NCBI GenBank assembly: GCA_017987115.1
Contig: JAGNUG010000025.1
Coordinates: 1-36,653 of the forward strand
Direction of reading: 5' to 3'
Length of the DNA: 36,653 nt
Source: Flavobacteriales bacterium
GTDB lineage: Bacteria; Bacteroidota; Bacteroidia; Flavobacteriales_F; PHOS-HE28
In this document: in pieces, positions 16,796-35,180 of the stretch
Layout of the letters: each line of letters opens with the position of its first letter
Position numbering within the stretch: position 1 is the stretch's first letter
The notes under the pieces: model-generated
What the model was told of the DNA's origin: nothing
The model's input: only the letters and a program-made list of their open reading frames with translations
Database searches by the model: none
Made by a program: the position numbers and the translations under genes

Positions 16796-16849
16796 ATGCA
16801 TTCCAACAATTATCTTGGTGCTCCGAAATGCCCTATCCACTTACTAATT

Positions 16850-19800
16850 ATGCCGAAGAGTCGTGAAATGAAGGAACCCGAAATGCTTACCATTCCGGAA
16901 ACCGCTTCCCTATTGCATGTCCATCCGAACACCATCCGTGCTTGGATGCGAAAAGGGAAGTTGGTCGCGGTGAAAATGGGCAAGGAAGAAGTAGACATGT
17001 TCCACAAGGCCGATGTACAAAAATTGATCAAACCATTGGAGAAACAGGGCGCGATCGTGAAAGAGGACCTACAGGCATTTCCGGTGGTGGGGATCGGCGC
17101 ATCGGCCGGTGGTATGGATGCCATGGGCAAGTTGCTTTCCAAGTTGCCAACGGACCTTGGTCTCGCTTACATCTTCGTTACACACATGGAAGATGATCGA
17201 GAGGAAATGGTAGTGGAATTGCTGCAAAAGAAAACAGCCCTACCCGTTGTGATCTCAGAGAATGGTGCACGTTTGAAACCAGATCAACTCTACGTTGCGG
17301 CAGCAGGAATGCATGTTTCCGTTGTGAACAATTCGATCACATTACAGCGTCCTGGGAATTTGCCTCAAGCCATGATACGCCCCATAGATGCATTGTTCAG
17401 GGGACTGGCGAATGAATACCAGAATAATGCCATCGGTATTTTATTGAGCGGTGGAGGTATGGATGGTACGCAAGGATTGCGAGCGATCAAAGCCGAAGAT
17501 GGATTGGCAATTGTGCAAGATGGCTCAGCGCTTGACCCAGCCATGCCACGGAATGCACAAGAGGCAGGGGTTGTCGATCTTGTATTGGCGCCAGAAGCGA
17601 TCGGTCCGCAACTCACCGAACTGGTAGAGCGCCTTTTCCCTTCGGGGGATACGCGTTTGCCTGCTAAACATGAAAATGAACTGCACCGGATCTTACGCCT
17701 CATGCGCGAACTACGTGGTGTTGATTTTACGCAGTACAAGGAAACGACGATCCATCGGCGTATCATTCGACGCATGGTACTGAGCAAGTGTACCAAGTTG
17801 AGCGACTACCTGAAATTATTGCGTGAAGTCCCTGCCGAAGTGGATACGCTCTTCACTGAGTTGTTGATCAACGTGACCAGTTTCTTTCGTGATCCCGATT
17901 TCCACAAAGCCCTTAATGAGCATGTATTCCCGGAATTGTTCAAGGATCGAGCAGGGAATGATACACTGCGTATCTGGATCCCGGCATGCGCTGGTGGTGA
18001 GGAAGTAGTTTCAGTAGCGATCGATCTCTTGGAATTCCTCCGGAAGCAGTCCATCACGACCACTGTGCAGATATTCGCTACCGACCTGAATGAACGCAAC
18101 ATTGACAAGGCGCGTTTGGGGATCTACAAGAAAACCGCGTTGCAGGATATCGAGCCTGAACGATTGCGTCAATTCTTCCAACCGGTGGATGGGCACTATC
18201 AAGTAATCAAGAGCATTCGCGATATGTGCGTATTCGCGAAGCATGACCTTCTTAAGGATCCACCATTCTCTCGGGTGGACCTGATCAGTTGCCAGAATAT
18301 GTTGATCTATATGGAGAACGCGTCACAAGGTCGCATCCTGAAGAATTTCCATTATGCATTGACACCGAATGGATTCTTGGCTCTAGGGAAAAGTGAGACC
18401 GTTGCCAATGCTCCGGACCTATTCGTGCAACCGGAACGCGGTCATAAGGTATTTCAAAAGAAGAATGCAGGGGCTGCTACAATACCGTTGGATCTTAATT
18501 TCAAACCATCCTTGTTACAACCGTTATCAACGATGGTGCCCAATGGTCCGCGTCCTGCCGTGAACTCTGTGGAACTGGAACGCGATCTCGAGCATGTTCT
18601 TTTGGAACGGCATGTACCCGCCAGTGTTCTGGTGAACAAACACTTTGAGATCGTTCGGTTCATGGGCCCTGCTTCCAAATACATTCTCCCGCGAAGTGGA
18701 AGAGCAACATTGAACCTATTGAAGATGGTGCGTGAGGACCTCGTCTTTGAAGTGCGTACGCTATTGCAGCGCGCCCGTAGGGACAAGTCATCAGCTCAAA
18801 AAGCAGGCATACCTGTGAAGTTCAACAACGTATTGTATGACCTGACCATTGAAGTTGAACCGATCGGAGGAATACGTGACCCCCATTTCTTAGTGGTCTT
18901 TAAAGACCAAGTGGCCGCAGCATTTGAACCGATCGATAAGGATGCACTTAAGTCAAAACAGCGCGATGCTCGCGATAAGCGCATTGCCATGCTTGAGCGG
19001 GACCTGAGGGATGCACGCGAACAATTACGTATTATCAGCGAGGAAAGTGAACTTGGTACACAAGAACTCCAAGCGGCGAATGAGGAAGTGGTCTCTTCTA
19101 ATGAAGAGCTGCAAAGCATCAATGAAGAATTGGAGACCAGTAAAGAGGAACTCCAAAGCATTAATGAGGAGTATGCTACGATCAATGAGGAATTGCGATT
19201 ACGTAATGACTCATTGAAGGAAAGCCAGGACCGCTTGGAACTGGCCACTCGTACTGGCAAAGTGGGGATATGGGATTGGGATATTGTCGCTGATCACATT
19301 ACGTGGAGCGAATCGCATTATGCCCTCCATGGCGTGAAACCCGGAATCTTTGAACCGACAGTGAAAGGATTTGCCGAACTGGTGCATCCAGAGGATCGGG
19401 ACCGTATTGTTGCGGCCATTGATGCAGCGTTGAAACATAATGCTAAGTACGAACTCGAGTTCCGTTCAGTGCGGCCGGACGGAAAAGTGATCTGGCTTTT
19501 CTCGAACGCGTCGGTGATCCGGGCTAACGGAAAGCCCGTGCGCATGCTGGGCGCAACGCTGGACATCACTGATCTCAAGGTAGCGGAAAGCGCTTTACAG
19601 GAACGCACCCGCGCACTCGAGGTGATGAACACAGTTGGGGCCTCGTTGATCGCCGAGGTCGATACCGAGACGATCATTCAGGCTGTTACCGACGCGGCGC
19701 GGCTGGTGAGCGGTGCCGAATTCGGCGCCTTCTTCCACAACCGGATCGACGAGAAAGGAGAGTCCTATATGCTCTACACGCTCAGCGGGGTTCCGCACGA

Positions 19801-22800
19801 GGCGTTCGAAAAATTCCCCATGCCCCGGGCCACGCAACTGTTCGGACCCACCTTCCGGGGCGAAGGCGTGATCCGGATCGACGACGTGCGCAAGGACCCG
19901 CGGTACGGCAAAATGGCACCTCACTACGGCATGCCCAAGGGGCACCTGCCCGTATGCAGCTATCTGGCGGTGCCGGTGGTATCCCGGAACGGTCAGGTGC
20001 TCGGCGGGCTTTTCTTCGGTCACAAGGAGCCGGGTCGATTCAACAAGGAAGGGGAGGAAATGGTCACCACCCTTGCCTCTCAAGCGGCCATGGCCCTGGA
20101 CAATGCAGGCTTGCACGATGCGCTACAGAAGGAGTTGGAGCAGCAGCGGATCGCGGAGGTAGCGCTGCGCGAGAGCGAGCAGCGCTATCGGGAGTTGTTG
20201 ACATCACTGCCAGCTGCGGTGTTTGCTTGTGACGCCGAAGGCCACTTGGGTGTGTACAACGAAGCCGCCGTACAGCTTTGGGGACGGCAACCGGAAACGG
20301 ACGAGCGATGGACCGGAGCCTTGGGGCTGTTCGACAAGGATGGCCATGCGATCGCGAAGGCCCAGAGCCCCATTGCACGCGCGATCGGGGAAGAGAAGTC
20401 CATCCGGGATGAGGTCATCATCGCACGCCCCGATGGCTCCCGGCGCAATGCTATGGCTTATGCTGAGCCGATGCGGGACGCCTCAGGAAAGGTGATCGGT
20501 GGACATTGCGTGTTGATCGACATCACCGAACGGAAAGAAGCTGAGGCTGAACGGGAGCAGCTTTCCGGCATGCTCGAACGCAGCCTGAACGAGATCTTCA
20601 TCTTCGATCTGGACAGTTTGAATTTCGAGTACGTGAACCACGGCGCATTGCGCAATCTGGGGTACACGCTCGAGCAGATGCGGAGCATGACTCCGTTGGA
20701 CATCAAGCCCGGAATGAACGCGCGGCAGTTCGATGAAATTGTAAAACCTCTTCGCAAGGGCGAAGAGGAAATGATCGAGTTCTATACGGTGCACCGCCGT
20801 GCAGACGGAAGTGACTACCCTGTGGAGGTGCATCTGCAGGTCTTGCAGAACGGCCCCAAGCGCTTGTTCATGGCCATGATCCTCGACATCACGGAAAGGA
20901 AATTGGACGAGGAGCGGATGCTCGATCTAGGTGCGCGCTTGGACCTTGCGTTGGATTCGGCCGATCTGGGAACATGGAACATCGATGGCAAGGTTGAGCA
21001 GATGACCACCGATGGTCGGTTCAAGTCCATTTTCGGATGGCAGGAGGATACGATCTCCGTTGCACAAGCGTTCGGAGTGCTCCATCCCGATGATCGCGAA
21101 CGGGTATCGGCCGCCATTGCCGGGGCCACCAGACCAGAGGACACCGTGCCCTACGAGATCGAATACCGCGTCATCCATCCTGATGGCTCCATCCATTGGG
21201 TGTTGGCCAAGGGCCGGTCGACCTTTACGGTGGGAGCCGCAGGCAAGGAACTCCTGAGTTTCGACGGAACGGTTCTGGACATTACAGAGCGTAAGGCCTC
21301 CGATGCTGCGGAACGCCGGTTGGCGGCCATCGTGGAATCATCCGAAGATGCGATCATCGGGGTGGATCTGGAAGGGGTCATCTCCGACTGGAACGACGGG
21401 GCAGAGATTCTATTCGGGTACGCTGAGGAAGAAGTGATCGGCCGATCGATCACGGTCCTGCTGCCCGACGATCGTAAAGAAGAGGAATCAAACCTGCTCA
21501 CACGGATCGCGAATGGCGAACGGGTAGAACATTTCGAGACCAAACGACAACGGAAAAATGGCTCGTTGGTGGATGTGGCGTTGAGCATTTCAGCGATCAA
21601 GGACGAGCTGGGTGTCGTTGTCGGGGCCGCCAAGATCGCCCGCGACATTACCATTGCTAAACGAGCGGAAGAAGAACTTCGCACCAGCGAGCAACGGTTC
21701 CATCTATTGGCGGACAATGTTTCGCAGTTGATCTGGATGGCCGAAGCGGATGGAAGCAACATCTGGTTCAACAAGCGCTGGTATGAATTCACCGGTATGA
21801 CCAACGAGGAGATACAAGCCAACCCCAAAGCCCTGTATCATCCGGATCATTTCGCAAGGGCCACCACCTCCATGTATGAACGAATGGGGAAAGGGGAGCA
21901 ATGGGATGACGTGTACCCGTTGAAGGGAAAGGATGGGAAGTACCATTGGTTCTTGGCCAATGCAATGCCCGTGAAGGATGGGGATGGCACGGTGCTCCGG
22001 TGGTTCGGTACGTGTACCGATATCACCGACCAGCGCTTAGCACAAGAGAAGATGCGAGAGAGCGAGGAACGGTTCCGCTTATTGGCGGACAACATCGCCC
22101 AGCTCGCTTGGATCGCTGAGCCGAATGGGGACATCCATTGGTACAATAAACGGTGGTTCGATTATTCCGGCACCACACCGGAAGAAATGGATGGATGGGG
22201 ATGGACGAAGATCCACCATCCGGACCATGTGGAACGCGTGACCGAGAAATTCAAGAAGCACATACAGGAAGAGCGCGATTGGGAGGATACCTTCCCGATC
22301 CGTGGTGCGGATGGCCAGTATCGTTGGTTCCTTTCCCGGGCGTTCCCGGTGCGCGATGGCCAAGGTGTGGTGCAGCGGTGGTTCGGTACAAATACGGATG
22401 TGACCAAGGAACGTGAAGCAAGGAGATTACTCCAGGAGAGCGAGGAACGCATGCGTTTGTTGGCGGAGAACATGTCGCAGATGGCCTATATCGCTTCCAC
22501 CGACATGAAGATACAATGGGTGAATAAGCGTTGGTTGGATTATACAGGCTTGGATGCTCAGGACATGAACAACGGTGGTTGGGAGCGTGCGGTTCATCCC
22601 GAAGACCTGTCGAAGATCACAGCCACTTTCGCGGAAGCAATTTCTTCCAAACGGCCATGGGAACATGTCTTTAAATTGAAGAACAAAGAAGGAGAATATC
22701 GATGGTTCCTTTCGATCAGCGTCCCGATCATCAATGAAAAGGGTGAGATTGAAAAGTGGTTCGGTACCAATACCGACATTACGGATCGCAAAGCCGTGGA

Positions 22801-23923
22801 AGAAGAACTGGCAACGATCGCGACGAACAAGGACAACTTCCTGGCAACTCTTGCACATGAACTCAGAGGTCCTTTGGCCCCGCTGAAGAACGGGTTACAA
22901 CTGATGGAAATGGCAACCGATGACCCAGCAGTGCAAGAGAACACACGCGGGATGATGGTGCGCCAACTGGACCACATGGTGCGCTTGGTGGACGACCTGA
23001 TGGACCTTAGCCGGATCAACACCGGCAAGTTCAAACTCAACATGGACGAAGTAGATATCAGTGATGTGGTGGCCACAGCCATGGAGGCCAGCAGACCCGA
23101 GATCGATCGTAACGGACACACATTGAGTGTTGACGTGAGCAGCGAAATGCTCTTGGTGAAAGGTGATCGTGATCGGCTGGTACAGGTGGTTTCCAACCTT
23201 TTGAACAATGCGGCCAAATACACACCAGAAAAAGGCAGGATCAGTGTGGTCGTTGAACATAGAGCGAATGATGTATTGATCCGTGTAAAGGACAACGGCA
23301 TCGGTATAGCGCCGGAACACATCAATAATGTGTTCGACATGTTCGCGCAAGTGGATATGCAACAGAAATCAAGATCGGGAGGTGGGTTGGGTATTGGACT
23401 GAACATTGTACAGCGAATGATGGAAAATCATAACGGGTCTGTGCATGCCTATAGTGAAGGCCTAGGAAAAGGCAGTGAATTCACCTTAAGGATACCGCGC
23501 ATGACAGATAAGATCGTACCGGCCGCCATCCCGGTGAACACAGTCAGCGAGCAAGGTGCCAAGCGGCGCGTACTGATCGTGGATGATAATGAAGATGCGG
23601 CCCTTTCCATGTCCATGATCCTGAAGAAACGCGGACATACTGTCAATGTAGCGCACGATGGGCAAGCTGCAGTTGCGGCAGGAGCGGAGTTCAAACCCGA
23701 ATTGGTGATCATGGATATCGGCATGCCCAAGATGAACGGCTACGAAGCATGCGCGGCAATGCGCAACACCAATTGGGGAAAGAATTGCCTGATCTTCGCA
23801 CTAAGCGGTTGGGGTCAAGAAGAGGATCGGCAGAAAAGCAAGGAGGCGGGTTTTGATCGACATGTGGTCAAACCCATAGATCGCGCTACGTTGGAGTGGA
23901 TCGTATTGCAAGAAAAAGGATGA
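16850..23923 (+). CDS. Giant hybrid signalling protein: HTH-CheB-CheR-PAS/GAF array-histidine kinase-receiver
   Basis: About 2,357 residues counted from the ATG at 16850; starts at 16796, 16868 or 16883 are also possible. Order: excisionase/MerR-like HTH (12-60: 'LTIPETASLLHVHPNTIRAW'); CheB methylesterase (79-265) with Ser85 in 'GIGASAGG', His112 and Asp205, spaced as in CheB; CheR methyltransferase (278-537; 'TELLINVTSFFRDP', 'ACAGGEEVVSVAI'); divergent PAS (574-686); coiled coil (704-790, 'SSNEELQSINEELETSKEEL'); PAS (792-914); GAF (921-1087); seven PAS domains (1111-1979); HisKA with His2003 in 'LAHELRGPL'; HATPase (2101-2217; 'NLLNNAAKYT', 'DNGIGIAPEH', 'GGGLGIGLNI'); receiver with Asp2289 in 'VIMDIGMP'. 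There is no membrane segment, so it is cytoplasmic. CheB-CheR-PAS-kinase fusions are known; the N-terminal HTH is unusual. It probably senses several signals and phosphorylates its own receiver. Confidence 0.95.
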   Translation: MPKSREMKEPEMLTIPETASLLHVHPNTIRAWMRKGKLVAVKMGKEEVDMFHKADVQKLIKPLEKQGAIVKEDLQAFPVVGIGASAGGMDAMGKLLSKLPTDLGLAYIFVTHMEDDREEMVVELLQKKTALPVVISENGARLKPDQLYVAAAGMHVSVVNNSITLQRPGNLPQAMIRPIDALFRGLANEYQNNAIGILLSGGGMDGTQGLRAIKAEDGLAIVQDGSALDPAMPRNAQEAGVVDLVLAPEAIGPQLTELVERLFPSGDTRLPAKHENELHRILRLMRELRGVDFTQYKETTIHRRIIRRMVLSKCTKLSDYLKLLREVPAEVDTLFTELLINVTSFFRDPDFHKALNEHVFPELFKDRAGNDTLRIWIPACAGGEEVVSVAIDLLEFLRKQSITTTVQIFATDLNERNIDKARLGIYKKTALQDIEPERLRQFFQPVDGHYQVIKSIRDMCVFAKHDLLKDPPFSRVDLISCQNMLIYMENASQGRILKNFHYALTPNGFLALGKSETVANAPDLFVQPERGHKVFQKKNAGAATIPLDLNFKPSLLQPLSTMVPNGPRPAVNSVELERDLEHVLLERHVPASVLVNKHFEIVRFMGPASKYILPRSGRATLNLLKMVREDLVFEVRTLLQRARRDKSSAQKAGIPVKFNNVLYDLTIEVEPIGGIRDPHFLVVFKDQVAAAFEPIDKDALKSKQRDARDKRIAMLERDLRDAREQLRIISEESELGTQELQAANEEVVSSNEELQSINEELETSKEELQSINEEYATINEELRLRNDSLKESQDRLELATRTGKVGIWDWDIVADHITWSESHYALHGVKPGIFEPTVKGFAELVHPEDRDRIVAAIDAALKHNAKYELEFRSVRPDGKVIWLFSNASVIRANGKPVRMLGATLDITDLKVAESALQERTRALEVMNTVGASLIAEVDTETIIQAVTDAARLVSGAEFGAFFHNRIDEKGESYMLYTLSGVPHEAFEKFPMPRATQLFGPTFRGEGVIRIDDVRKDPRYGKMAPHYGMPKGHLPVCSYLAVPVVSRNGQVLGGLFFGHKEPGRFNKEGEEMVTTLASQAAMALDNAGLHDALQKELEQQRIAEVALRESEQRYRELLTSLPAAVFACDAEGHLGVYNEAAVQLWGRQPETDERWTGALGLFDKDGHAIAKAQSPIARAIGEEKSIRDEVIIARPDGSRRNAMAYAEPMRDASGKVIGGHCVLIDITERKEAEAEREQLSGMLERSLNEIFIFDLDSLNFEYVNHGALRNLGYTLEQMRSMTPLDIKPGMNARQFDEIVKPLRKGEEEMIEFYTVHRRADGSDYPVEVHLQVLQNGPKRLFMAMILDITERKLDEERMLDLGARLDLALDSADLGTWNIDGKVEQMTTDGRFKSIFGWQEDTISVAQAFGVLHPDDRERVSAAIAGATRPEDTVPYEIEYRVIHPDGSIHWVLAKGRSTFTVGAAGKELLSFDGTVLDITERKASDAAERRLAAIVESSEDAIIGVDLEGVISDWNDGAEILFGYAEEEVIGRSITVLLPDDRKEEESNLLTRIANGERVEHFETKRQRKNGSLVDVALSISAIKDELGVVVGAAKIARDITIAKRAEEELRTSEQRFHLLADNVSQLIWMAEADGSNIWFNKRWYEFTGMTNEEIQANPKALYHPDHFARATTSMYERMGKGEQWDDVYPLKGKDGKYHWFLANAMPVKDGDGTVLRWFGTCTDITDQRLAQEKMRESEERFRLLADNIAQLAWIAEPNGDIHWYNKRWFDYSGTTPEEMDGWGWTKIHHPDHVERVTEKFKKHIQEERDWEDTFPIRGADGQYRWFLSRAFPVRDGQGVVQRWFGTNTDVTKEREARRLLQESEERMRLLAENMSQMAYIASTDMKIQWVNKRWLDYTGLDAQDMNNGGWERAVHPEDLSKITATFAEAISSKRPWEHVFKLKNKEGEYRWFLSISVPIINEKGEIEKWFGTNTDITDRKAVEEELATIATNKDNFLATLAHELRGPLAPLKNGLQLMEMATDDPAVQENTRGMMVRQLDHMVRLVDDLMDLSRINTGKFKLNMDEVDISDVVATAMEASRPEIDRNGHTLSVDVSSEMLLVKGDRDRLVQVVSNLLNNAAKYTPEKGRISVVVEHRANDVLIRVKDNGIGIAPEHINNVFDMFAQVDMQQKSRSGGGLGIGLNIVQRMMENHNGSVHAYSEGLGKGSEFTLRIPRMTDKIVPAAIPVNTVSEQGAKRRVLIVDDNEDAALSMSMILKKRGHTVNVAHDGQAAVAAGAEFKPELVIMDIGMPKMNGYEACAAMRNTNWGKNCLIFALSGWGQEEDRQKSKEAGFDRHVVKPIDRATLEWIVLQEKG

Positions 23924-26534: not shown

Positions 26535-29500
26535 ATGGACAACAATGCACGATCCCGTTACGCGGAGCCGTTGGCGCTACCCTCGAAAGTGAAGTTTGCA
26601 CTCTTAGCATGTTGCATGGTCCTGAGCAGTTTGGTCGTTGCTCAAGGAGGCTCTGAGTGTGATGCATTTGCGGGAACCTTAACCGGTTTCAAGCCAACTG
26701 ATTGTTTATTGGACGGTGGCACGGCCATTGGTGGAATTCCCAATGGTGATGCGGTGGTGCCTGCTGGTTATTCCAAGGTATATGTGCTTACCACAAGCCC
26801 TGGAGCGATCATTCAACAAGTTCGTACCGTGCCGATCTTCGATGTAACCACCGAGGCGACCTACACGATCCATACATTGGTGTATGATCCTGCTACATTG
26901 GACCTTACTATCGTTGTTCCCGGAGTTACTTCCGCCAGCACGGTGAATGGTCTGTTGGTGCAAGGTGGTGGGTCCATCTGCGCTGGTCTGGATCTCGTGG
27001 GCACACAGATACTAGTGGCCAACCCAAGTACGGGCAGCATTACTGCAGTAATGGATGAAGTTTGCATTACCGGAGGGTCGGCAACCGTAGCGGCCTCTTC
27101 TGCGGCGGGCACGGTGGTTCCGGAAGGATACAATGTCCTCTATGTACTTACGAACGGAGCGGGTCTTGTGATTGAAGACGCATCAGCTACACCGGAATTT
27201 GAGGTGAACGCGGTGGGCTCCTATACGATACATACGTTGGTCTATGATCCTGCAACTTTGGACCTGGATGTTGTTCAATTCGGAATTACCACCGGGTTCG
27301 ATGTCAACAGCCTGCTGTTCCAAGGTGGAGGTAATATATGCGGTGTTCTTGATGTTGGCGGTGCACCCGTGAATGTGGTGGAGTGCAATACCGATTGCAC
27401 GGCTTACGCTGGTACGCTCTCCGGTTTCAAACCAACTGACTGCTTGCAGGAAGGTGGTACAGCGATCGGTGGAATTTCCAATGGCGACAAGGTGGTACCC
27501 GCGGGGTATGAAGTGCTCTATGTTCTCACCAGCGCTCCTGGTGCTATAATAGAGCAAGTTAGTAACGTGCCGATCTTTGATGTGTTGGAAGAAGCGGTCT
27601 TCACAGTTCATACGTTGGTTTATGATCCTGCAACACTTGATCTGAGCACAGTGCAACTCGGTGTTACAAGTGCAGCCGCAATTCACGATCTTCTTATTGA
27701 AGGTGGCGGTTCCATCTGCGGGTCACTGGATCTTGTTGGTACTACCATTCAGGTCGAGAATCCGGAATCCGGTGGACTCACCGCAGTGGAAGCACAGGTC
27801 TGTATTGTTGCTGGTTCCGCAATTATTAGCGCTACGCCGAGCGGTGGGCTATACGTGCCGAACAGCTACAGTGTATTGTATGTGCTTACTCAAGGTCCCG
27901 GACTTGTGATCTTGGATACGAGCAGCGAACCAATGTTCTCAGTTACCGAGTTGGGTGACTATACCATACACACGCTGGTTTACGACCCAGCGACATTGCC
28001 ATTGGGCGGTGTGGTGCCTGGAACTACAACAGGTTTCGATGTGAACGGTATGCTGCTCCAAGGTGGCGGCGGGATCTGTGCAGTACTGGATGTTGCAGGT
28101 GCACCGATCGAAGTGATCGAATGCAATGTTCCTTGTCTCACGGATGCGGGTTCATTGTCGATAGGTTCGTTCGAGACCTGCTTGGTGGATGGACAAGCTG
28201 TTGTTACGGCTTTCGTTGAAGATGCTCCGACCGTACCAACTGGATATGAAGTGATCTACGTTCTTACATCCGGAACGGACCTTGTTCTTCAGCAAGTCTC
28301 CGAAGACCCCAACTTCTTCGTTTCGAATGATGGTACGTTCACCGTTCATACGTTGGTGTATGATCCTGGCACCCTGGATCTATCAATTGTGAATCTGGGA
28401 GTTACAACAGCTGCGGCTGTCAATGCGCTATTGATTCAAGGTGGTGGTCTCATTTGTGGGTCGCTTGATCTGGTCGGTGCTACCACGCTTGTTATTGATT
28501 GCAATATCGAGTGCTTTACACATGCGGGATCGTTGACCGGTAACGAGACTCCTTGCTTATTGGATGGAATGGCAACGATCTCTGCCACACCAAATGGTGA
28601 TGCCGTGGAGCCATCAGGTTACACCACCATCCATGTGCTCACAAGCGGTGCAGGGTTGATCATTCAACAGACCTCTACAACGCCAAGTTTCGCCATATCC
28701 AATACGGGTCTTTACACCATTCATACATTGGTGTATGATGCCAACACGCTGGATCTTGGCATTGTGGTGTTCGGTTCAACTCCTGCGAGTGCGGTCAACG
28801 AGTTGCTTCTTCAAGGAGGAGGAGATATCTGTGGTAGTTTGGATGTTACCGGTGCATCATTCGTTATTGAGGAATGCACGACCGATTGCATAGCTGATGC
28901 TGGAACACTGACAGGAAATGATGCTCCTTGTCTTGAAGTAAGCCCTGTTCTTGTTACAGCGGTTGCAAATGGCGATGCACTGGAGCCTGCAGGTTATTCT
29001 ACGCTTTTTGTTCTGACCAGCGGAGATGATCTGGTGATCGAAGCTGTTAGTGCCGACCCATCGTTTGCCGTAGATATGATAGGTGTTTATACCATCCATA
29101 CGTTGGTGTATGACCCGAGTTCCCTCGACCTGACGATAGTTGAATTCGGGGTGACCACTGCGTCTGAGGTGAATGCCATGTTGATCCAAGGTGGTGGTGA
29201 TATCTGTGCTGCGTTGGATGTGGACGGTGCGTCCTTTACGATCGAACCATGTTCCACGGAATGCATCATTTCTGCTGGGTCCATAACAGGTGTGAATCCT
29301 CTGGGTTGTCTGTCGGATGGGGCCTCTACGTTGATCGCTACGCCAAATGGAGATGCGATCATACCTCCGGGTTTTGTTCAGAACTACGTGTTGGCATACG
29401 GCCCGGATCTGGTGATCATGCAGGTCGGTCCCAACCCATCATTCCTAATTACAACACCGGGCGTGTACTCCATGCATTCCATTGTGTACAACCCAGCAAC

Positions 29501-30287
29501 GCTTGATCTGTCGATCATCGAACTGGGGGTATCCACAGCGGCAGAAGTTGTTACATACATCCTTTTGAACGGCGGCAATATTTGCGCTGCCCTCGATCAG
29601 ACCGGTGCTCAATATGCCATTGGTAATTGCTTGGAACCGTGCTTAGCAAAGGTTCACCTGATCGCCAATGGAAGTGGCGGTTGCTTGGTGAATGGAGAGA
29701 TCACATTGTCCGCAACGCCGAATGCCAGCATGATGGTGCCTCCTGGGTACACTGTGGCGTATATCCTAGCAAGTGGTGCAAGCGCAGTGATCGAGGAGAT
29801 CAGCCCAACGGCGAGCTTTACGGTGACCACTCCCGGTGCATATTCGATACACGGTCTGGTCTATGACCCGTTGACATTGGACCTTTCGTTGATCACCCCG
29901 GGGATGTCCACCATGGATGCCGTTCATATCCTGCTTACTCAAAGCGATGAACCTTTCTGTGCAGGTATAGATATTCCTGGAGTACCGTTCATTGTGACCG
30001 ATTGCGGAAATATTATCACCCAACCTACCACTGCTATCTGGCCTGTACCCGTTGTGGACCAATTGAATGTGCAGGTCAGCGAGCGGATAACGGGTCACAA
30101 CTCCCAAGTTGTACTTACTATCCTTGATGCCATGGGTCATCAGCTCCTAAGTGAGAAAGTGACCGGTAATGCAACAGTGCCATTGTCGTTGAATGTGCTA
30201 GGGCTTACTCCGGGCACCTACACTTTGCGTGTTCAAAGTGTCCATGGCGTTGAATCGCAGCGGTTCGTTAAGATCGGTCAGAAATAG
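26535..30287 (+). CDS. T9SS-exported surface protein of nine ~125-residue repeats
   Basis: This 1,250-residue protein has a signal peptide with a long n-region ('KVKFALLACCMVLSSLVVAQ'). Nine copies of an unrecognised beta-rich domain follow, marked by '[VL]P-x-GY-x3-YVLT', 'YTIHTLVYDPATLDL' and 'LLxQGGGxICGxLD', plus conserved Cys at the repeat start, about residue 15 and in 'ICG'. The end (about residue 1165 on: 'IWPVPVVDQLNVQV', 'VVLTILDAMGHQLLSEKV', 'LGLTPGTYTLRVQS') is a type A T9SS sorting domain, so it should cross the outer membrane by type IX secretion and be released or attached to A-LPS. The repeats resemble stacked Ig-like modules in length and pattern, suggesting an adhesin or surface filament. 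No enzyme motif seen. A 21-bp tandem repeat lies just upstream. Confidence 0.9.
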   Translation: MDNNARSRYAEPLALPSKVKFALLACCMVLSSLVVAQGGSECDAFAGTLTGFKPTDCLLDGGTAIGGIPNGDAVVPAGYSKVYVLTTSPGAIIQQVRTVPIFDVTTEATYTIHTLVYDPATLDLTIVVPGVTSASTVNGLLVQGGGSICAGLDLVGTQILVANPSTGSITAVMDEVCITGGSATVAASSAAGTVVPEGYNVLYVLTNGAGLVIEDASATPEFEVNAVGSYTIHTLVYDPATLDLDVVQFGITTGFDVNSLLFQGGGNICGVLDVGGAPVNVVECNTDCTAYAGTLSGFKPTDCLQEGGTAIGGISNGDKVVPAGYEVLYVLTSAPGAIIEQVSNVPIFDVLEEAVFTVHTLVYDPATLDLSTVQLGVTSAAAIHDLLIEGGGSICGSLDLVGTTIQVENPESGGLTAVEAQVCIVAGSAIISATPSGGLYVPNSYSVLYVLTQGPGLVILDTSSEPMFSVTELGDYTIHTLVYDPATLPLGGVVPGTTTGFDVNGMLLQGGGGICAVLDVAGAPIEVIECNVPCLTDAGSLSIGSFETCLVDGQAVVTAFVEDAPTVPTGYEVIYVLTSGTDLVLQQVSEDPNFFVSNDGTFTVHTLVYDPGTLDLSIVNLGVTTAAAVNALLIQGGGLICGSLDLVGATTLVIDCNIECFTHAGSLTGNETPCLLDGMATISATPNGDAVEPSGYTTIHVLTSGAGLIIQQTSTTPSFAISNTGLYTIHTLVYDANTLDLGIVVFGSTPASAVNELLLQGGGDICGSLDVTGASFVIEECTTDCIADAGTLTGNDAPCLEVSPVLVTAVANGDALEPAGYSTLFVLTSGDDLVIEAVSADPSFAVDMIGVYTIHTLVYDPSSLDLTIVEFGVTTASEVNAMLIQGGGDICAALDVDGASFTIEPCSTECIISAGSITGVNPLGCLSDGASTLIATPNGDAIIPPGFVQNYVLAYGPDLVIMQVGPNPSFLITTPGVYSMHSIVYNPATLDLSIIELGVSTAAEVVTYILLNGGNICAALDQTGAQYAIGNCLEPCLAKVHLIANGSGGCLVNGEITLSATPNASMMVPPGYTVAYILASGASAVIEEISPTASFTVTTPGAYSIHGLVYDPLTLDLSLITPGMSTMDAVHILLTQSDEPFCAGIDIPGVPFIVTDCGNIITQPTTAIWPVPVVDQLNVQVSERITGHNSQVVLTILDAMGHQLLSEKVTGNATVPLSLNVLGLTPGTYTLRVQSVHGVESQRFVKIGQK
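26658..30010 (+). repeat. Nine-fold tandem protein-domain repeat within the T9SS protein
   Basis: Repeat starts, taken at the first conserved Cys codon, fall at 26658, 27396, 28134, 28512, 28887, 29262 and 29640. The first two intervals are exactly 738 bases and each holds two 'HTLVYDP' units; the second unit of each pair lacks the N-terminal 'AGTLxGF' part. Later intervals are 375 or 378 bases with one unit each. Copies 8 and 9 are the most diverged ('MHSIVYNP', 'IHGLVYDP'). Confidence 0.85.
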
Positions 30288-30302
30288 TCTTTCTGTTAGT
30301 GT

Positions 30303-30346
30303 AAGAAGCCCGCATCTGCCGTTCGGCAAATGCGGGCTTCTTGTTT
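30303..30346 (+). terminator. Rho-independent terminator of the repeat-protein gene
   Basis: AAGAAGCCCGCAT (30303-30315) pairs with ATGCGGGCTTCTT (30330-30342), with an inner TGCC/GGCA stem, followed by GTTTT. It lies 15 bases after the stop codon and separates this gene from the heme-uptake locus. Confidence 0.9.
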
Positions 30347-30491
30347 TGGACCGGATCTAGTACTGGTAAATGGGATCATGATCCATTCTCTTGACAATTC
30401 CATGACCGAAACGGCTTGAGAAGACCATCCTTGGGTTGTGCGCTCAACGTTCCGGTAGTTGCTTTGTACCCGCAAAACAGCAACACATTTC

Positions 30492-31739
30492 ATGAGGATC
30501 TTTACACTGTGCGCCACCGCACTTATATCATATTCCACAATTGCTCAAACAACCGTAGTTGTTAACACAAGTGCCGGTAACTCCGGACAGGAATACTACA
30601 GTTTACAGAACGGTACCATCAGCAACCCATCGTTGGCCCAGTGGGATCTGGCCTTCGAAACTTCCGGGATAACGGGAAGCATTCTGGTCAATACGGCCAA
30701 AGGCATTCAGGTTCATAAAGCTCCTTACGCGCTCGCTGATTGGGCAATATTGGATACGACAGGGCTCGCCGCATCCTGGACACCGCAACAGAACAGTGAA
30801 ACGAACTGGAGTTCAGGTGCACTCAATCAAGGCCTTACGAGCAACCCCTTCGATCTGGGATGGGGCATCTACAACATGGTGACCCACAATATAACTGGGG
30901 ATAGTTTGTTCGTACTGAAACTCGCCGATGGTTCATGGAAGAAGTTGCGCATTGATGGATACGCTTCGGCAACCAATGCATTCACGTTCACATGGGCCAA
31001 CCTTGATGGCGGTGCAGAACAGGTGGGCAGCATTGTTCGCGGTGATTATTCTACAATGAATTTCGGATATTACTCGCTTGAGTCGAATAGCCCATTGGCC
31101 CAAGAACCGGATGCTTCCACATGGGACCTTGTCTTCACGAAATACCTCGGGTTCGTAACGCAACCTGCTGAAGGGTTTTATCCGGTTGTAGGATGCTTTC
31201 AGAATCGCGATATACAAACACTCCAAGTGGATGGTGTGCCTTCAGCATCGGCATCATGGAGCGACGGAACGTTCAGTGAAGATATCAATGTGATCGGTTT
31301 TGATTGGAAGAGCTTCAACATGACCACCTTCATGTGGGAGTACGCACAGGACCGCACCTATTTCGTGCAGGATCGCGATGGCAACATCTGGAAATTGATC
31401 TTTTCGGAATATGGCGGTAGCGCTGCTGGTACCATCACCTTTACGCAAGAGCTCGTAAGTGCGACCGGTGTGAACGAATATGGCACGAACGGATCGGCGA
31501 CCGTATTCCCGAATCCTTCAAATGGAGGCGACGTGAATGTGTTGTTGGATATTCCGGCGAACGAAGCACAGCTCACCATCACAGCAATTAATGGCAAATT
31601 GGTGCAAAGTCAAAAATTGACGGGGATCAACCCCTTAACAGTTCGATCATTGGACGTATCATCGTTGACATCAGGTGTGTACTTGCTCCGTATCGCTCAC
31701 ACGAGCGGCGTAACAAATACCAAATTGGTCATTGAATAG
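30492..31739 (+). CDS. HmuY-like heme-binding protein with T9SS sorting domain
   Basis: 415 residues from the ATG at 30492 ('MRIFTLCATALISYSTIAQT', a clean signal peptide); an earlier Met at 30459 spoils the signal. The body has the HmuY pattern of two related halves, each with 'WDLAFETSGITGSILVN' or 'WDLVFTKYLGFV', plus 'FVLKLADGSWKKLRIDGY' and 'TYFVQDRDGNIWKLIFSEY'. HmuY proteins take heme from host or environmental hemoproteins and pass it to a TonB-dependent receptor. The last 75 residues or so ('VFPNPSNGGDVNVLLDI', 'LDVSSLTSGVYLLRIAHT') form a type A T9SS sorting domain, so this copy should be secreted or surface-attached. First gene of the locus; the receptor follows. Confidence 0.85.
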   Translation: MRIFTLCATALISYSTIAQTTVVVNTSAGNSGQEYYSLQNGTISNPSLAQWDLAFETSGITGSILVNTAKGIQVHKAPYALADWAILDTTGLAASWTPQQNSETNWSSGALNQGLTSNPFDLGWGIYNMVTHNITGDSLFVLKLADGSWKKLRIDGYASATNAFTFTWANLDGGAEQVGSIVRGDYSTMNFGYYSLESNSPLAQEPDASTWDLVFTKYLGFVTQPAEGFYPVVGCFQNRDIQTLQVDGVPSASASWSDGTFSEDINVIGFDWKSFNMTTFMWEYAQDRTYFVQDRDGNIWKLIFSEYGGSAAGTITFTQELVSATGVNEYGTNGSATVFPNPSNGGDVNVLLDIPANEAQLTITAINGKLVQSQKLTGINPLTVRSLDVSSLTSGVYLLRIAHTSGVTNTKLVIE

Positions 31740-31758
31740 AAGAGCCCCTCGTTGCGTA

Positions 31759-31802
31759 GAACGCTCTGTGTCTTGGTTGGCATGGGGCGTTCAATGTTTT
31801 TT
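31759..31802 (+). terminator. Weak terminator candidate
   Basis: GAACGC (31759-31764) and GCGTTC (31787-31792) can pair across a long loop, and a run of six T follows at 31797-31802. It may partly end transcription between the HmuY-like gene and the receptor gene. The short stem makes this doubtful. Confidence 0.3.
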
Positions 31803-31923
31803 GGGTGATCACTCGCTCTTGTGAATTGTGAATTGATCATCCGGATCTACCGAACTGTGACAGTATCCTACGGTAGCTGGCCGACCTTCGCGCAGCGAAA
31901 GGAAATAAGCGACTTCGCCTCGC

Positions 31924-34206
31924 GTGAGCATCGATCCGTACATAATTCATTTGAGATCGTTATGGATCGCGCTACTCCTGCTTTCCGGAGCTCTTTCCGC
32001 ACAGACCTCCGTTGAGGTACTCGACAATATCGATGGTAAGCCGGTTCCTTTCGCAGTGGTACGTCCAGAGACAGAGGATCACACGGGTATTGCATCGAAG
32101 AGCACTGATCTGAACGGTAGAGCTGTTTTCAGTGATGATGAACTTTTTGGCAAGGATCCTGCTTTCATTCGAATTGAAGCGCTCGGTTACGAGGTGGCAA
32201 CAATTCCCGCGCTGATGCATGTCACGTTCGCCCTGAAGCGGGATCCACAACAATTGAAGGACGCTGTGGTTACCGGTCAATATGGGCCAACTTCCGCTGA
32301 TAATGCCGTACACAAAGTGCGTGTGATCAATGAAGCACAACTTCAAGCACGCGCTTCGAACACGCTTGCCGATGCCTTGCAGAATGAATTGAATATTCAG
32401 CTTTCACAAGACAATATCCTTGGTACTTCCATGTCCATGCAAGGGCTCAGCGGGCAGAACGTTAAGATCTTGATCGATGGTGTGCCTGTTATCGGAAGGC
32501 AGAACGGGAATATCGATCTGGCTCAAATGGACCTGAACGGCATAGCGCATGTGGAGATCGTGGAAGGGCCGTTGAGCGTCAGCTATGGAACCAATGCATT
32601 GGCCGGAACGATCAACTTGATCACCAAGAAGAATGCAAGTGAAGCACCTACCTTTAAATTCAGTTCGTATGCTGAACATATCGGTCGGCTTAACCTTTGG
32701 GGAACCGCCGCAAAACGGTGGGGAAAGCATAATGTGAACATCAACCTTGGGCGCGATTATTTCAACGGCTGGAACCCAGGTCAGACCGGTATTCCCAACT
32801 TCGGACCTGCATTGGCCGACACCCTGCGCTACCAGCAATGGAAGCCACGTGAACAGTATACAGGCCGACTCAATTATCGATGGAACAGCAGTTCTTGGCA
32901 GCTCGGATACAAGGCCGAGGTCAGCAACGAGCTCATAACCGCGCGCGGTAGACCACGAGCCCCATACTACGTTTCAGCATTCGATGAGGAGTACAGAACA
33001 CAACGCATCGATAACGCTTTGTTTGCCGATCACTTCTGGAACCATGGGCGCAAACTGAACCTGATCATTGCGCACGATCGATACAAGCGCACACGCAATA
33101 CATGGGTCCGTGATCTCACGAACCTCGGAGAACAATTGGTGGTCGGTGAAGATGTACAGGACACCTCGCGTTTCACTTTGACCAATGCTCGATTGGTCTA
33201 CTTTTCTGCGGGGGAAGACGCACGGTTGCGATACGAGTTCGGGACGGATATTAATTATGAGACCGGCTCCGGTCAACGCATTGTGAATGAGAATGGTGCC
33301 TCGATCGGTGACTACGCCTTGTATTCCAGCATCGAATACAAGCCATGGAAGCAGGTCATAGTAAGGCCTGCGGTCCGGTATTCGTACAACACCATCTACG
33401 ATGCTCCGTTGGTGCCGTCGCTCAACATCCGATGGCAATTGGATACGGCGTTCACCGTCCGAGCTAGTTATGCACGAGGGTTCCGTACGCCGTCGTTGAA
33501 GGAACTCTATTTCTATTTCGTGGATGTGAACCATGACATACGGGGAAACGAGGATCTCAATGCCGAACACTCCAACAATTTCAGTGCATCACTTACCTGG
33601 AACGAACCACGCGAACACGGTGCATGGCGCGCTGAGCTTAGTGGTTTTTACAATACCATCAACGACCTGATCACCTTGGCGCAGGTGGATGCGACATTAT
33701 ACACGTACGTCAATATTGGTCAGTACCGGACAGCCGGAGGGAATCTCGGCGTGTCGTGGGAGGGTGAGCAATGGGCCATCAGTGCGGGTGGTAATGTCAC
33801 AGGTCGAAAGGATGATCTCGTAAGGGATGGAGCTAATGACTTCCTGTGGTCCCATGAAGCGCGTGGTTCCATTACGCGCACATGGGCAAAGCATGGTTTA
33901 TCAGCACAAGCATTCTTCAAATACCAAGGTTTGGTCTCCAACTACGCCGTGGCCGATGATAATACTGTGCAACGATCGATGATCGAAGCGTATAGCATGG
34001 CCGACGTATCGCTGACAAAAGAGCTATTCAAAAAGCAACTTGGCCTAACAGTGGGGTGCAAGAACCTATTGGATGTGCAGAACCTGAATGCCTCGAGCTC
34101 CGGTGTTGGTGGAGTTCACGTTAACGGCGGATCCAGCGTACCTATGATGAATGGTCGCCTTTTCTTTCTGCGCTTGAACCTTGAATTATCAGCTCTGAAA
34201 AAATGA
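31924..34206 (+). CDS. TonB-dependent outer-membrane receptor, probable heme/HmuY partner
   Basis: 760 residues from GTG at 31924; TTG at 31951 is an alternative start directly before the signal 'LRSLWIALLLLSGALSAQT'. A carboxypeptidase-regulatory-like domain (about 28-108, 'KSTDLNGRAVF', 'FIRIEALGYEV') precedes a TonB-box-like 'DAVVTGQY' (113-120). The plug domain (about 125-235) has 'MQGLSGQNVKILIDGVPV' and 'VEIVEGPLSVSYGTNALAG', and the barrel fills the rest. The barrel has 'GFRTPSLKELYFYF' (from about residue 519) and then 'NEDLNAEHSNN', equivalents of the FRAP/NPNL loop that marks heme receptors such as HmuR. It imports a ligand across the outer membrane using TonB energy. Its stop overlaps the start of the HmuY-like lipoprotein by 4 bases (ATGA). 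Confidence 0.93.
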   Translation: MSIDPYIIHLRSLWIALLLLSGALSAQTSVEVLDNIDGKPVPFAVVRPETEDHTGIASKSTDLNGRAVFSDDELFGKDPAFIRIEALGYEVATIPALMHVTFALKRDPQQLKDAVVTGQYGPTSADNAVHKVRVINEAQLQARASNTLADALQNELNIQLSQDNILGTSMSMQGLSGQNVKILIDGVPVIGRQNGNIDLAQMDLNGIAHVEIVEGPLSVSYGTNALAGTINLITKKNASEAPTFKFSSYAEHIGRLNLWGTAAKRWGKHNVNINLGRDYFNGWNPGQTGIPNFGPALADTLRYQQWKPREQYTGRLNYRWNSSSWQLGYKAEVSNELITARGRPRAPYYVSAFDEEYRTQRIDNALFADHFWNHGRKLNLIIAHDRYKRTRNTWVRDLTNLGEQLVVGEDVQDTSRFTLTNARLVYFSAGEDARLRYEFGTDINYETGSGQRIVNENGASIGDYALYSSIEYKPWKQVIVRPAVRYSYNTIYDAPLVPSLNIRWQLDTAFTVRASYARGFRTPSLKELYFYFVDVNHDIRGNEDLNAEHSNNFSASLTWNEPREHGAWRAELSGFYNTINDLITLAQVDATLYTYVNIGQYRTAGGNLGVSWEGEQWAISAGGNVTGRKDDLVRDGANDFLWSHEARGSITRTWAKHGLSAQAFFKYQGLVSNYAVADDNTVQRSMIEAYSMADVSLTKELFKKQLGLTVGCKNLLDVQNLNASSSGVGGVHVNGGSSVPMMNGRLFFLRLNLELSALKK

Positions 34207-35180
34207 GGAAGCTCGGCACGTTCATTCTTTCGGTGGCGACCATGTCGTTGCTTTCTTCATGTCTAAAGGATGAGTTGCCAGTGATCCCGGCAGAACGAGG
34301 CGATGTGATCGAAGTTCAGTTGACCATGGGCAATGGCTACAATGAGCAATTGTGGTTCGACCTTGGAACGAATACCGTTGTTGCCCAGAACAGTAAGACG
34401 GATTGGGATCTGGCCTTTGAGTGTGGCGCTGCCGGCTGGCAGGTACGGGTGAACCCAGCGCGCTTCATGCGAGCCAATAGGACCAATACGAGCGATATCA
34501 CCTTGGCGACCGATACCAACGGGTTCGGCGTACAATGGGAATATGATCACAGTGAAGGCATGGCCGATAGTCTTGCGTTCGGTGACTGGCGCACGAATGA
34601 TAACGTGTACGTGCTGGACCTTGGTCTTGACGCTGAGGGTACGTTACTCGGTATCCGTAGAGTGCGGGTGTTGGAGTCAACAACTGCGCAATACACCTTC
34701 GAGGTTGCAGCGATGAACGGTAGCAACGTGCAACAATTCACAGTGCAAAAGGATCCGTCACGTGCGTATGTGCATTTCAGTATTCTGAATGGACAACAGG
34801 TATTGATCGCTCCACCGCATGGTGCGTATGACCTGGTATTTTCGCAATACACCTACCAATTCTATGACCCTTATCTGGCCTATCTGGTAACTGGGGCTGT
34901 CAGTGGTTTCAGCGGCTGCAGGATAAGCGAATTCTTTACGGATGATTTCGCCTCGGTCTCCTTAGCTGATACTACCGCGAACCCATTCAGTACGAACGAG
35001 GATGTGATCGGATACGATTGGAAGGAATACGATTTCGATACCGGTATCTATGCGATCTTTCCGGATCATGTATTCATTGTTCAGGATACCGAAGGGTACT
35101 TCTACAAATTGCATTTCACCGATTGGTATAACGCCGCTGGCCAGCGCGGTAACCCACGGTTTGAAGTGGTCGGGTTGTAG
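34203..35180 (+). CDS. HmuY-family lipoprotein
   Basis: 325 residues. The signal 'LGTFILSVATMSLLSSC' has lipobox 'LLSSC' with Cys20 lipidated, so this copy is membrane-anchored. HmuY-like blocks are 'NEQLWFDLGTNTVVAQN', 'TDWDLAFECGAAGWQVRVN', 'YDLVFSQYTYQFYD', 'DVIGYDWKEYDFDTGI' and 'HVFIVQDTEGYFYKLHFTDW'. The last two align with 'NVIGFDWKSFNM' and 'TYFVQDRDGNIWKLIFSEY' of the T9SS version at 30492-31739. It has no sorting domain. The ATG overlaps the receptor stop codon, so translation is probably coupled. Heme-binding residues cannot be assigned from sequence alone; other ligands for this fold cannot be ruled out. Confidence 0.88.
   Translation: MRKLGTFILSVATMSLLSSCLKDELPVIPAERGDVIEVQLTMGNGYNEQLWFDLGTNTVVAQNSKTDWDLAFECGAAGWQVRVNPARFMRANRTNTSDITLATDTNGFGVQWEYDHSEGMADSLAFGDWRTNDNVYVLDLGLDAEGTLLGIRRVRVLESTTAQYTFEVAAMNGSNVQQFTVQKDPSRAYVHFSILNGQQVLIAPPHGAYDLVFSQYTYQFYDPYLAYLVTGAVSGFSGCRISEFFTDDFASVSLADTTANPFSTNEDVIGYDWKEYDFDTGIYAIFPDHVFIVQDTEGYFYKLHFTDWYNAAGQRGNPRFEVVGL

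Follow-up and report, generated by a model that had tools for sequence, protein, structure and literature searches.

A nine-module protein of a Flavobacteriales bacterium with a type IX sorting domain, and a module family, predicted to be a beta-sandwich, absent from the libraries searched

In a Flavobacteriales bacterium, the window analysed here (the whole 36,653-nucleotide stretch of contig JAGNUG010000025.1, assembly GCA_017987115.1) carries a gene, at 26535..30287 on the forward strand, whose product of 1250 amino acids (aa) consists, from N to C, of a probable signal peptide, an array of nine modules, each about 119-125 aa long, and a type A sorting domain of the type IX secretion system (T9SS). 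The module is a domain family new to the libraries searched, namely Pfam, NCBIfam, PHROGs and PDB sequences, while the kind of object that it builds is already known. Its fold is confidently predicted to be an Ig/FN3-like beta-sandwich with an insert of about 40 residues before the last strand. From this, from the distribution of its cysteines and from the architecture of relatives we infer, as the probable nature of the protein, a surface-anchored and disulfide-braced stalk or fibre whose role would be adhesive or structural.

The nine-module protein and its family

The open reading frame starts with ATG and exists as it was described in an earlier sequence-only reading, in which the letters and the translated frames had been inspected and no database searched. 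The core motif [YF][TS][IVM]H[TSG][LI]VY[DN] is found nine times, at aa 110, 230, 356, 476, 602, 727, 852, 978 and 1103, with a motif-to-motif distance of 120-126 residues. An alignment of the nine modules spans about 120-125 columns, with a mean column identity of 60%; thus the array of nine copies claimed by that reading is borne out. In the numbering of this alignment, 13 columns are invariant among the nine (C14, P33, L42, F59, H70, V73, Y74, L79, L81, G87, C106, D110 and G113). The length of about 125 residues that had been called regular stands only in part, since the period switches between about 120 and about 125 aa because the borders 1/2 and 3/4 are without the Cys-containing linker. 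In fact, as seen along the forward strand, module 1 (26667..27026) and module 3 (27405..27761) are without C120, and module 2 (27027..27398) and module 4 (27765..28136) without the leading border Cys; modules 5 to 8 follow at 28143..28514, 28521..28889, 28896..29264 and 29271..29642, and a divergent module 9 at 29646..30014. From the GGG motif, which had been described as shared, modules 8 and 9 depart. Moreover, modules 1-2 and modules 3-4 seem to go back to an old duplication of a pair, with 72% DNA identity over 176 nt at a spacing of 738 nt.

Export of this protein by the T9SS is plausible. The N-terminus (26535..26645, read by eye) is hydrophobic, ends in ...LSSLVVAQ and resembles a Sec signal peptide; the C-terminus (30036..30266) matches PF18962 with 27.1 bits in the whole protein (cut-off 27) and 32.8 bits as a tail alone, and TIGR04183 with 26.4 bits (cut-off 23). 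The genome itself encodes the T9SS translocon (SprA_N, PF14349, E 2.6e-159, in a 2100-aa frame) and has at least 150 PF18962 matches, and it is from these that the plausibility of export derives. The earlier assignment of the protein as T9SS cargo with a C-terminal sorting domain therefore agrees with both models above their cut-offs and with the SprA of the genome.

Besides the sorting domain, the Pfam scan of the protein gave no domain. When the protein, the nine-copy profile and 117 diverse family members were used as queries against Pfam, NCBIfam, PHROGs and PDB sequences, only chance-level matches were obtained apart from the sorting domain and weak PKD matches, the latter for 3 of the 117 diverse modules (best E 6e-4). 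A match to phrog_14972 (E 8e-4) was considered as the identity of the family and dropped, as it spans 21 residues only. The sequence-only reading had regarded the module as undescribed, and for the libraries searched this holds, with no sequence match in Pfam, NCBIfam or PDB; a profile hidden Markov model of the nine copies was run against Pfam as it had proposed and found no family, and the clear Pfam match which it had named as its refutation did not appear. In a search of the literature, among open-licence papers, no paper on the module was found. Of the known modules, PKD (PF00801/PF18911) is also an Ig-like sandwich, and we take the module strand GxYTIHTLVYD to resemble the PKD strand GxYTVTLTV; however, the window protein gives no match to PF00801 in any of its modules, and the module has the insert of about 40 residues and an invariant Cys before strand G. 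The SprB repeat (PF13573), like other T9SS adhesin and gliding repeats, likewise occurs in tandem in T9SS-exported surface proteins and even in the same host in some cases (locus L046), but it differs in sequence and length (a 37-position model), and no window module matches it.

With the profile of the nine window copies and one peptide pattern, 165 related stretches were found in a genome collection, and 379 distinct full-length modules were extracted from the loci kept, in arrays of 1-19 modules. The records come from Flavobacteriales, Flavobacteriaceae (Bizionia, Lacinutrix, Xanthomarina), Saprospiraceae and Chitinophagales. The distribution is patchy, because the module is present in 28 of 35 genomes of the window's genus but in only 5 of 395 genomes sampled across the phylum, the window's own counted in; in its own genome, an assembly in 202 contigs, it is confined to this single gene. 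All 379 modules have C105, while P32, L41, F58, D109, G112 and H69 are each conserved at about 99% (H69 being part of the search pattern, a match to which was demanded of only one module per locus), and C13 and D79 are each kept in 90%. As for array growth, the loci L134 and L132 have near-identical modules inside one protein (94-99% DNA identity), which show that arrays were recently amplified in tandem; the copies of the window, with at most 72% DNA identity over shared blocks, are older. A second module without a Pfam model, of 110 aa, is seen in several hosts (for example at L016:9519-9848 and L046:7356-7985), where it adjoins T9SS C-terminal domains (CTDs) or SprB repeats. Its N-terminal half is similar to that of the studied module in a profile-profile comparison (probability 80.6%, E 1.3e-5), and its length and its insert are different; it is probably a remotely related sister family, which hints that T9SS-associated Ig-like modules may form a wider superfamily.

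Altogether the module is a compact and confidently predicted family that was missed by the libraries searched, and whole surface proteins of environmental Flavobacteriales and Saprospiraceae, some with as many as 19 copies, are made of it. With a curated model, many 'hypothetical T9SS proteins' could be annotated as likely stalk or adhesin proteins.

Predicted fold and cysteine pairs

For module 6, AlphaFold2 with 117 aligned modules as input gave a model with a mean predicted local distance difference test (pLDDT) of 93.7 and a predicted template modelling score (pTM) of 0.85. The model has strands at residues 5-7, 17-24, 35-42, 47-52, 56-59 and 63-72 and a last strand at 112-116, which is preceded by the insert of about 40 residues with a short helix at 89-93 and a further strand at 105-107. 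Both the strand order and the structural matches point to an Ig/FN3-like sandwich. In VIA-align the top match is CD45 (Z 7.9, root mean square deviation (rmsd) 2.5, 84 aligned), and FN3 and Ig domains make up the other matches, which reach Z 7-8 and cover about 84 of the 123 residues; the scores are modest, the best being Z 7.9 and a Foldseek E of 0.03. A structural twin was also sought and the candidates were set aside, as the best E of Foldseek was 0.033 against PDB and 0.014 against a viral library, and VIA returned only generic Ig/FN3 domains at Z of about 7-8. Among these weak matches is the Aureispira grappling-hook protein GhpA (fragment 9fls; Z 6.8, rmsd 2.8, 80 aligned), which is likewise a surface protein with Ig-like domains from the phylum of the T9SS; however, no sequence relation was found, and the likeness is one of generic Ig folds.

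The model of modules 5-7 forms three beads with a mean pLDDT of 94.2 and a pTM of 0.51, the latter value leaving the relative orientation of neighbouring modules uncertain. Its best match is tandem titin FnIII (Z 9.3, 263 aligned, rmsd 12.5), and it matches 5irb with Z 7.0 (rmsd 8.8, 247 aligned). A structure check of one repeat and of neighbouring repeats had been asked for in the sequence-only reading, and these two models, together with the FN3/Ig matches, support the beta-sandwich which it had proposed.

The cysteines fall into two sets. C13 and C105 occur in nearly all modules and are probably the natural internal disulfide pair, which would pin the insert. The other two stand at the module borders, C120 where the last strand ends and its partner just ahead of the first strand of the next module, with a spacing that ranges from adjacent to several residues apart. 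At all 8 borders of the window the two are either both present or both absent, the latter at 1/2 and 3/4. Among the 304 borders of all loci, 173 have two Cys, 101 none and 30 only one, while independence would predict about 116, 44 and 143 respectively, an informal comparison, as the sequences are related. Such covariation supports a putative border disulfide that would join C120 of a module to the Cys ahead of the following one. The earlier suggestion that the Cys pattern points to disulfides is thus consistent with an invariant C105 and covarying border Cys. Moreover, the invariant Cys and the covarying pairs would fit a disulfide-stiffened rod, and such Cys rules offer a testable picture of how Bacteroidota may make stiff extracellular rods.

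In proteins made of modules throughout, a lone Cys is left at each end of the array (C42 and C1157 in the window); both end Cys are found in 10 of the 12 complete all-module proteins, and at internal borders it is these two positions that covary. The lone Cys at both ends would allow an intermolecular joining. That separate molecules do link head to tail by a border-type disulfide, so as to make covalent surface fibres after T9SS export with neither sortase nor chaperone-usher, we regard as a long shot.

Possible roles of the array

The relatives of the window protein indicate how such arrays are placed. T9SS sorting domains are found at 57 of 60 distinct host C-termini (PF18962 in 53, CHU_C in 4). 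At the other end, 45 hosts have at least 110 residues ahead of the array, and in these N-terminal segments GEVED is seen in 15 and a T9SS-associated galactose-binding-like domain in 9, while other hosts carry SprB repeats or a subtilase before the array. In known fibrillar adhesins, according to Barringer et al. (PMC10952558), GEVED directly follows the adhesive NR2 tip and precedes the stalk, whose domains begin 12-17 residues past the GEVED motif. In 13 host proteins of our set the A strand of the module begins 10-15 residues past that motif; this spacing is close to the published one, and thus these relatives place the module at the stalk position of known adhesins. The window protein belongs to another type, the all-module type with fewer than 100 residues before the array, as do 23 of 68 proteins with a complete N-terminus. 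It shares with fibrillar adhesins bearing CshA_NR2/GEVED heads (PF20009; PMC10952558) a single polypeptide with a signal peptide (in the window protein a probable one), a long array of domains of about 100-125 aa and a C-terminal surface-sorting domain, but it has neither GEVED nor an NR2 tip, its stalk module is of another sequence family, one that is not in Pfam, and a T9SS CTD takes the place of LPXTG.

Based on the above, the following mechanism can be proposed. The protein would be exported by the Sec pathway and the T9SS and then displayed on the surface or released. Its nine Ig/FN3-like sandwiches would be strung like beads, each composed of strands A-F, the insert pinned by C13-C105, and strand G, and many borders would be stiffened by the second disulfide. 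The array may then act as a stalk or fibre which attaches cells to each other, to the matrix or to surfaces, with its length shifting through tandem duplication. The fibre or adhesin interpretation had already been given in the sequence-only reading; its T9SS cargo, sandwich fold and Cys pattern have stood, whereas fibre stacking and an adhesin role rest on architecture, that is, on the GEVED heads of relatives and on stalk-like arrays.

Three points weigh against this interpretation. A recognisable adhesive tip was sought in the window protein and not found, the array following directly on the signal peptide; with its nine-module stalk of repeated domains but no tip domain, the protein is therefore not classed as a fibrillar adhesin, though it is stalk-like. 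Nothing on function can be read from the predicted fold, whose matches are generic (VIA Z below 8, Foldseek E 0.03). Besides, H69 and D109 are so strongly conserved that they could belong to a ligand or metal site and not be purely structural.

The last point leads to the best of the alternatives, namely direct ligand binding by the modules (carbohydrate, Ca2+ or another metal) through the conserved His and Asp, in a protein that would be multivalent and lectin-like, or metal-stiffened, and no passive stalk. The conservation of H69, D109 and G112 at 99% and of D79 at 90% seems beyond the needs of a bare Ig stalk, and Ca2+-binding Ig-like repeats are known in an ice-binding adhesin (discussed in PMC10619420), the adhesin structure 5irb being among the matches of modules 5-7. 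However, no known ligand-binding family is matched by the module in the libraries searched, and the invariant residues could equally be structural by packing the insert; we hold direct binding to be unlikely.

A further alternative comes from the neighbourhood. Downstream of the module gene, at a distance of 204 bp and on the same strand, lies a trio of genes separate from it, encoding an HmuY-like protein with a T9SS CTD (30492..31739), a TonB-dependent receptor (31924..34206) and an HmuY-like protein without a T9SS CTD (34203..35180). The modules might capture a hemoprotein at the surface through the invariant His and pass heme to these proteins, for which speak the conservation of H69 and the recurrence of the same order in eight fetched loci (L004, L012, L014, L017, L024, L029, L033 and L037) and in 9 of the 35 genus genomes, which overlap those loci. 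But a strong GC-rich hairpin lies directly past the stop codon in all 11 gaps between module gene and trio that were examined, the window included (157-205 bp); in the window it is intrinsic-terminator-like and followed by a T-rich tract (30302..30343, forward strand, -31.3 kcal/mol, z -6.9). Moreover, the trio has a promoter-like element for itself, the -7-like GTTGCTTTG at 30458..30466 on the forward strand (read by eye), which stands about 30-35 bp ahead of the HmuY start and is kept in loci with and without a module gene upstream. Most genus members, and likewise the five other genera fetched (L142-L146), have the trio but no module gene beside it, with the order or strand altered in two, while module genes elsewhere accompany GEVED, subtilase, SprB or HYR domains with no HmuY close by. 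On the HmuY tree the adjacency costs 5 changes, and the starred branches force at least 4, so module genes have been repeatedly gained or lost at this site. The sequence-based tests for co-transcription with the trio and for conservation with it both came out negative; module gene and trio appear to be separate transcription units, and their link, as judged from these comparisons, is positional. The synteny had looked strong, and a role in a heme operon was dropped in view of the terminators, the separate promoter-like element and the widespread trio-only loci. Likewise, as compared with the HmuY/HmuR and Hfp heme uptake loci (PMC9331221), the trio is similar in having HmuY-like proteins and a TonB receptor, but the module gene is apparently a transcription unit of its own and is absent from most such loci. 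Heme acquisition by the modules is thus doubtful, somewhat more so than direct ligand binding.

Least probable of the three, and improbable on our estimate, is an array without any binding role, be it an accessory or spacer that parts or stabilises further secreted functions, or else a matrix protein secreted in soluble form. For this speak the subtilase joined to the module in L041 and the unrelated domains that accompany it in other hosts, and type A CTD cargo may also be released. However, the short segments before the array in the window protein and in 23 of 68 relatives with a complete N-terminus leave little N-terminal cargo to space.

Around the module gene

Several smaller observations concern the relatives and the neighbouring genes. 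In L041 (5634-8945) a subtilase (PF00082) is followed by at least 3 modules, the module being here an accessory domain on a peptidase. In L132 (1700-12938) two tandem module genes lie directly upstream of the HmuY trio; one of them encodes 1950 aa with only 3 recognised modules, and in the other, two adjacent modules are 99% identical in DNA.

In the trio of the window (30492-35180), a T9SS-exported HmuY is paired with a second HmuY without CTD around one receptor. Between the first HmuY gene and the receptor gene, a terminator-like hairpin of 14 pairs followed by a T-run is located at 31759-31792 and is possibly an attenuator. The palindrome ATACCnnGATCnnGGTAT recurs in many of the trio loci that have no module gene (L114, L116, L117, L118, L128 and L140), some 40-60 bp ahead of the HmuY start, and makes a candidate operator; in the window a search for it gave nothing above chance. 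Further upstream in the window, at 16796-23923, a frame of 2375 aa encodes a hybrid signalling protein with HTH_17, CheB, CheR, several PAS, GAF, histidine kinase and receiver domains.

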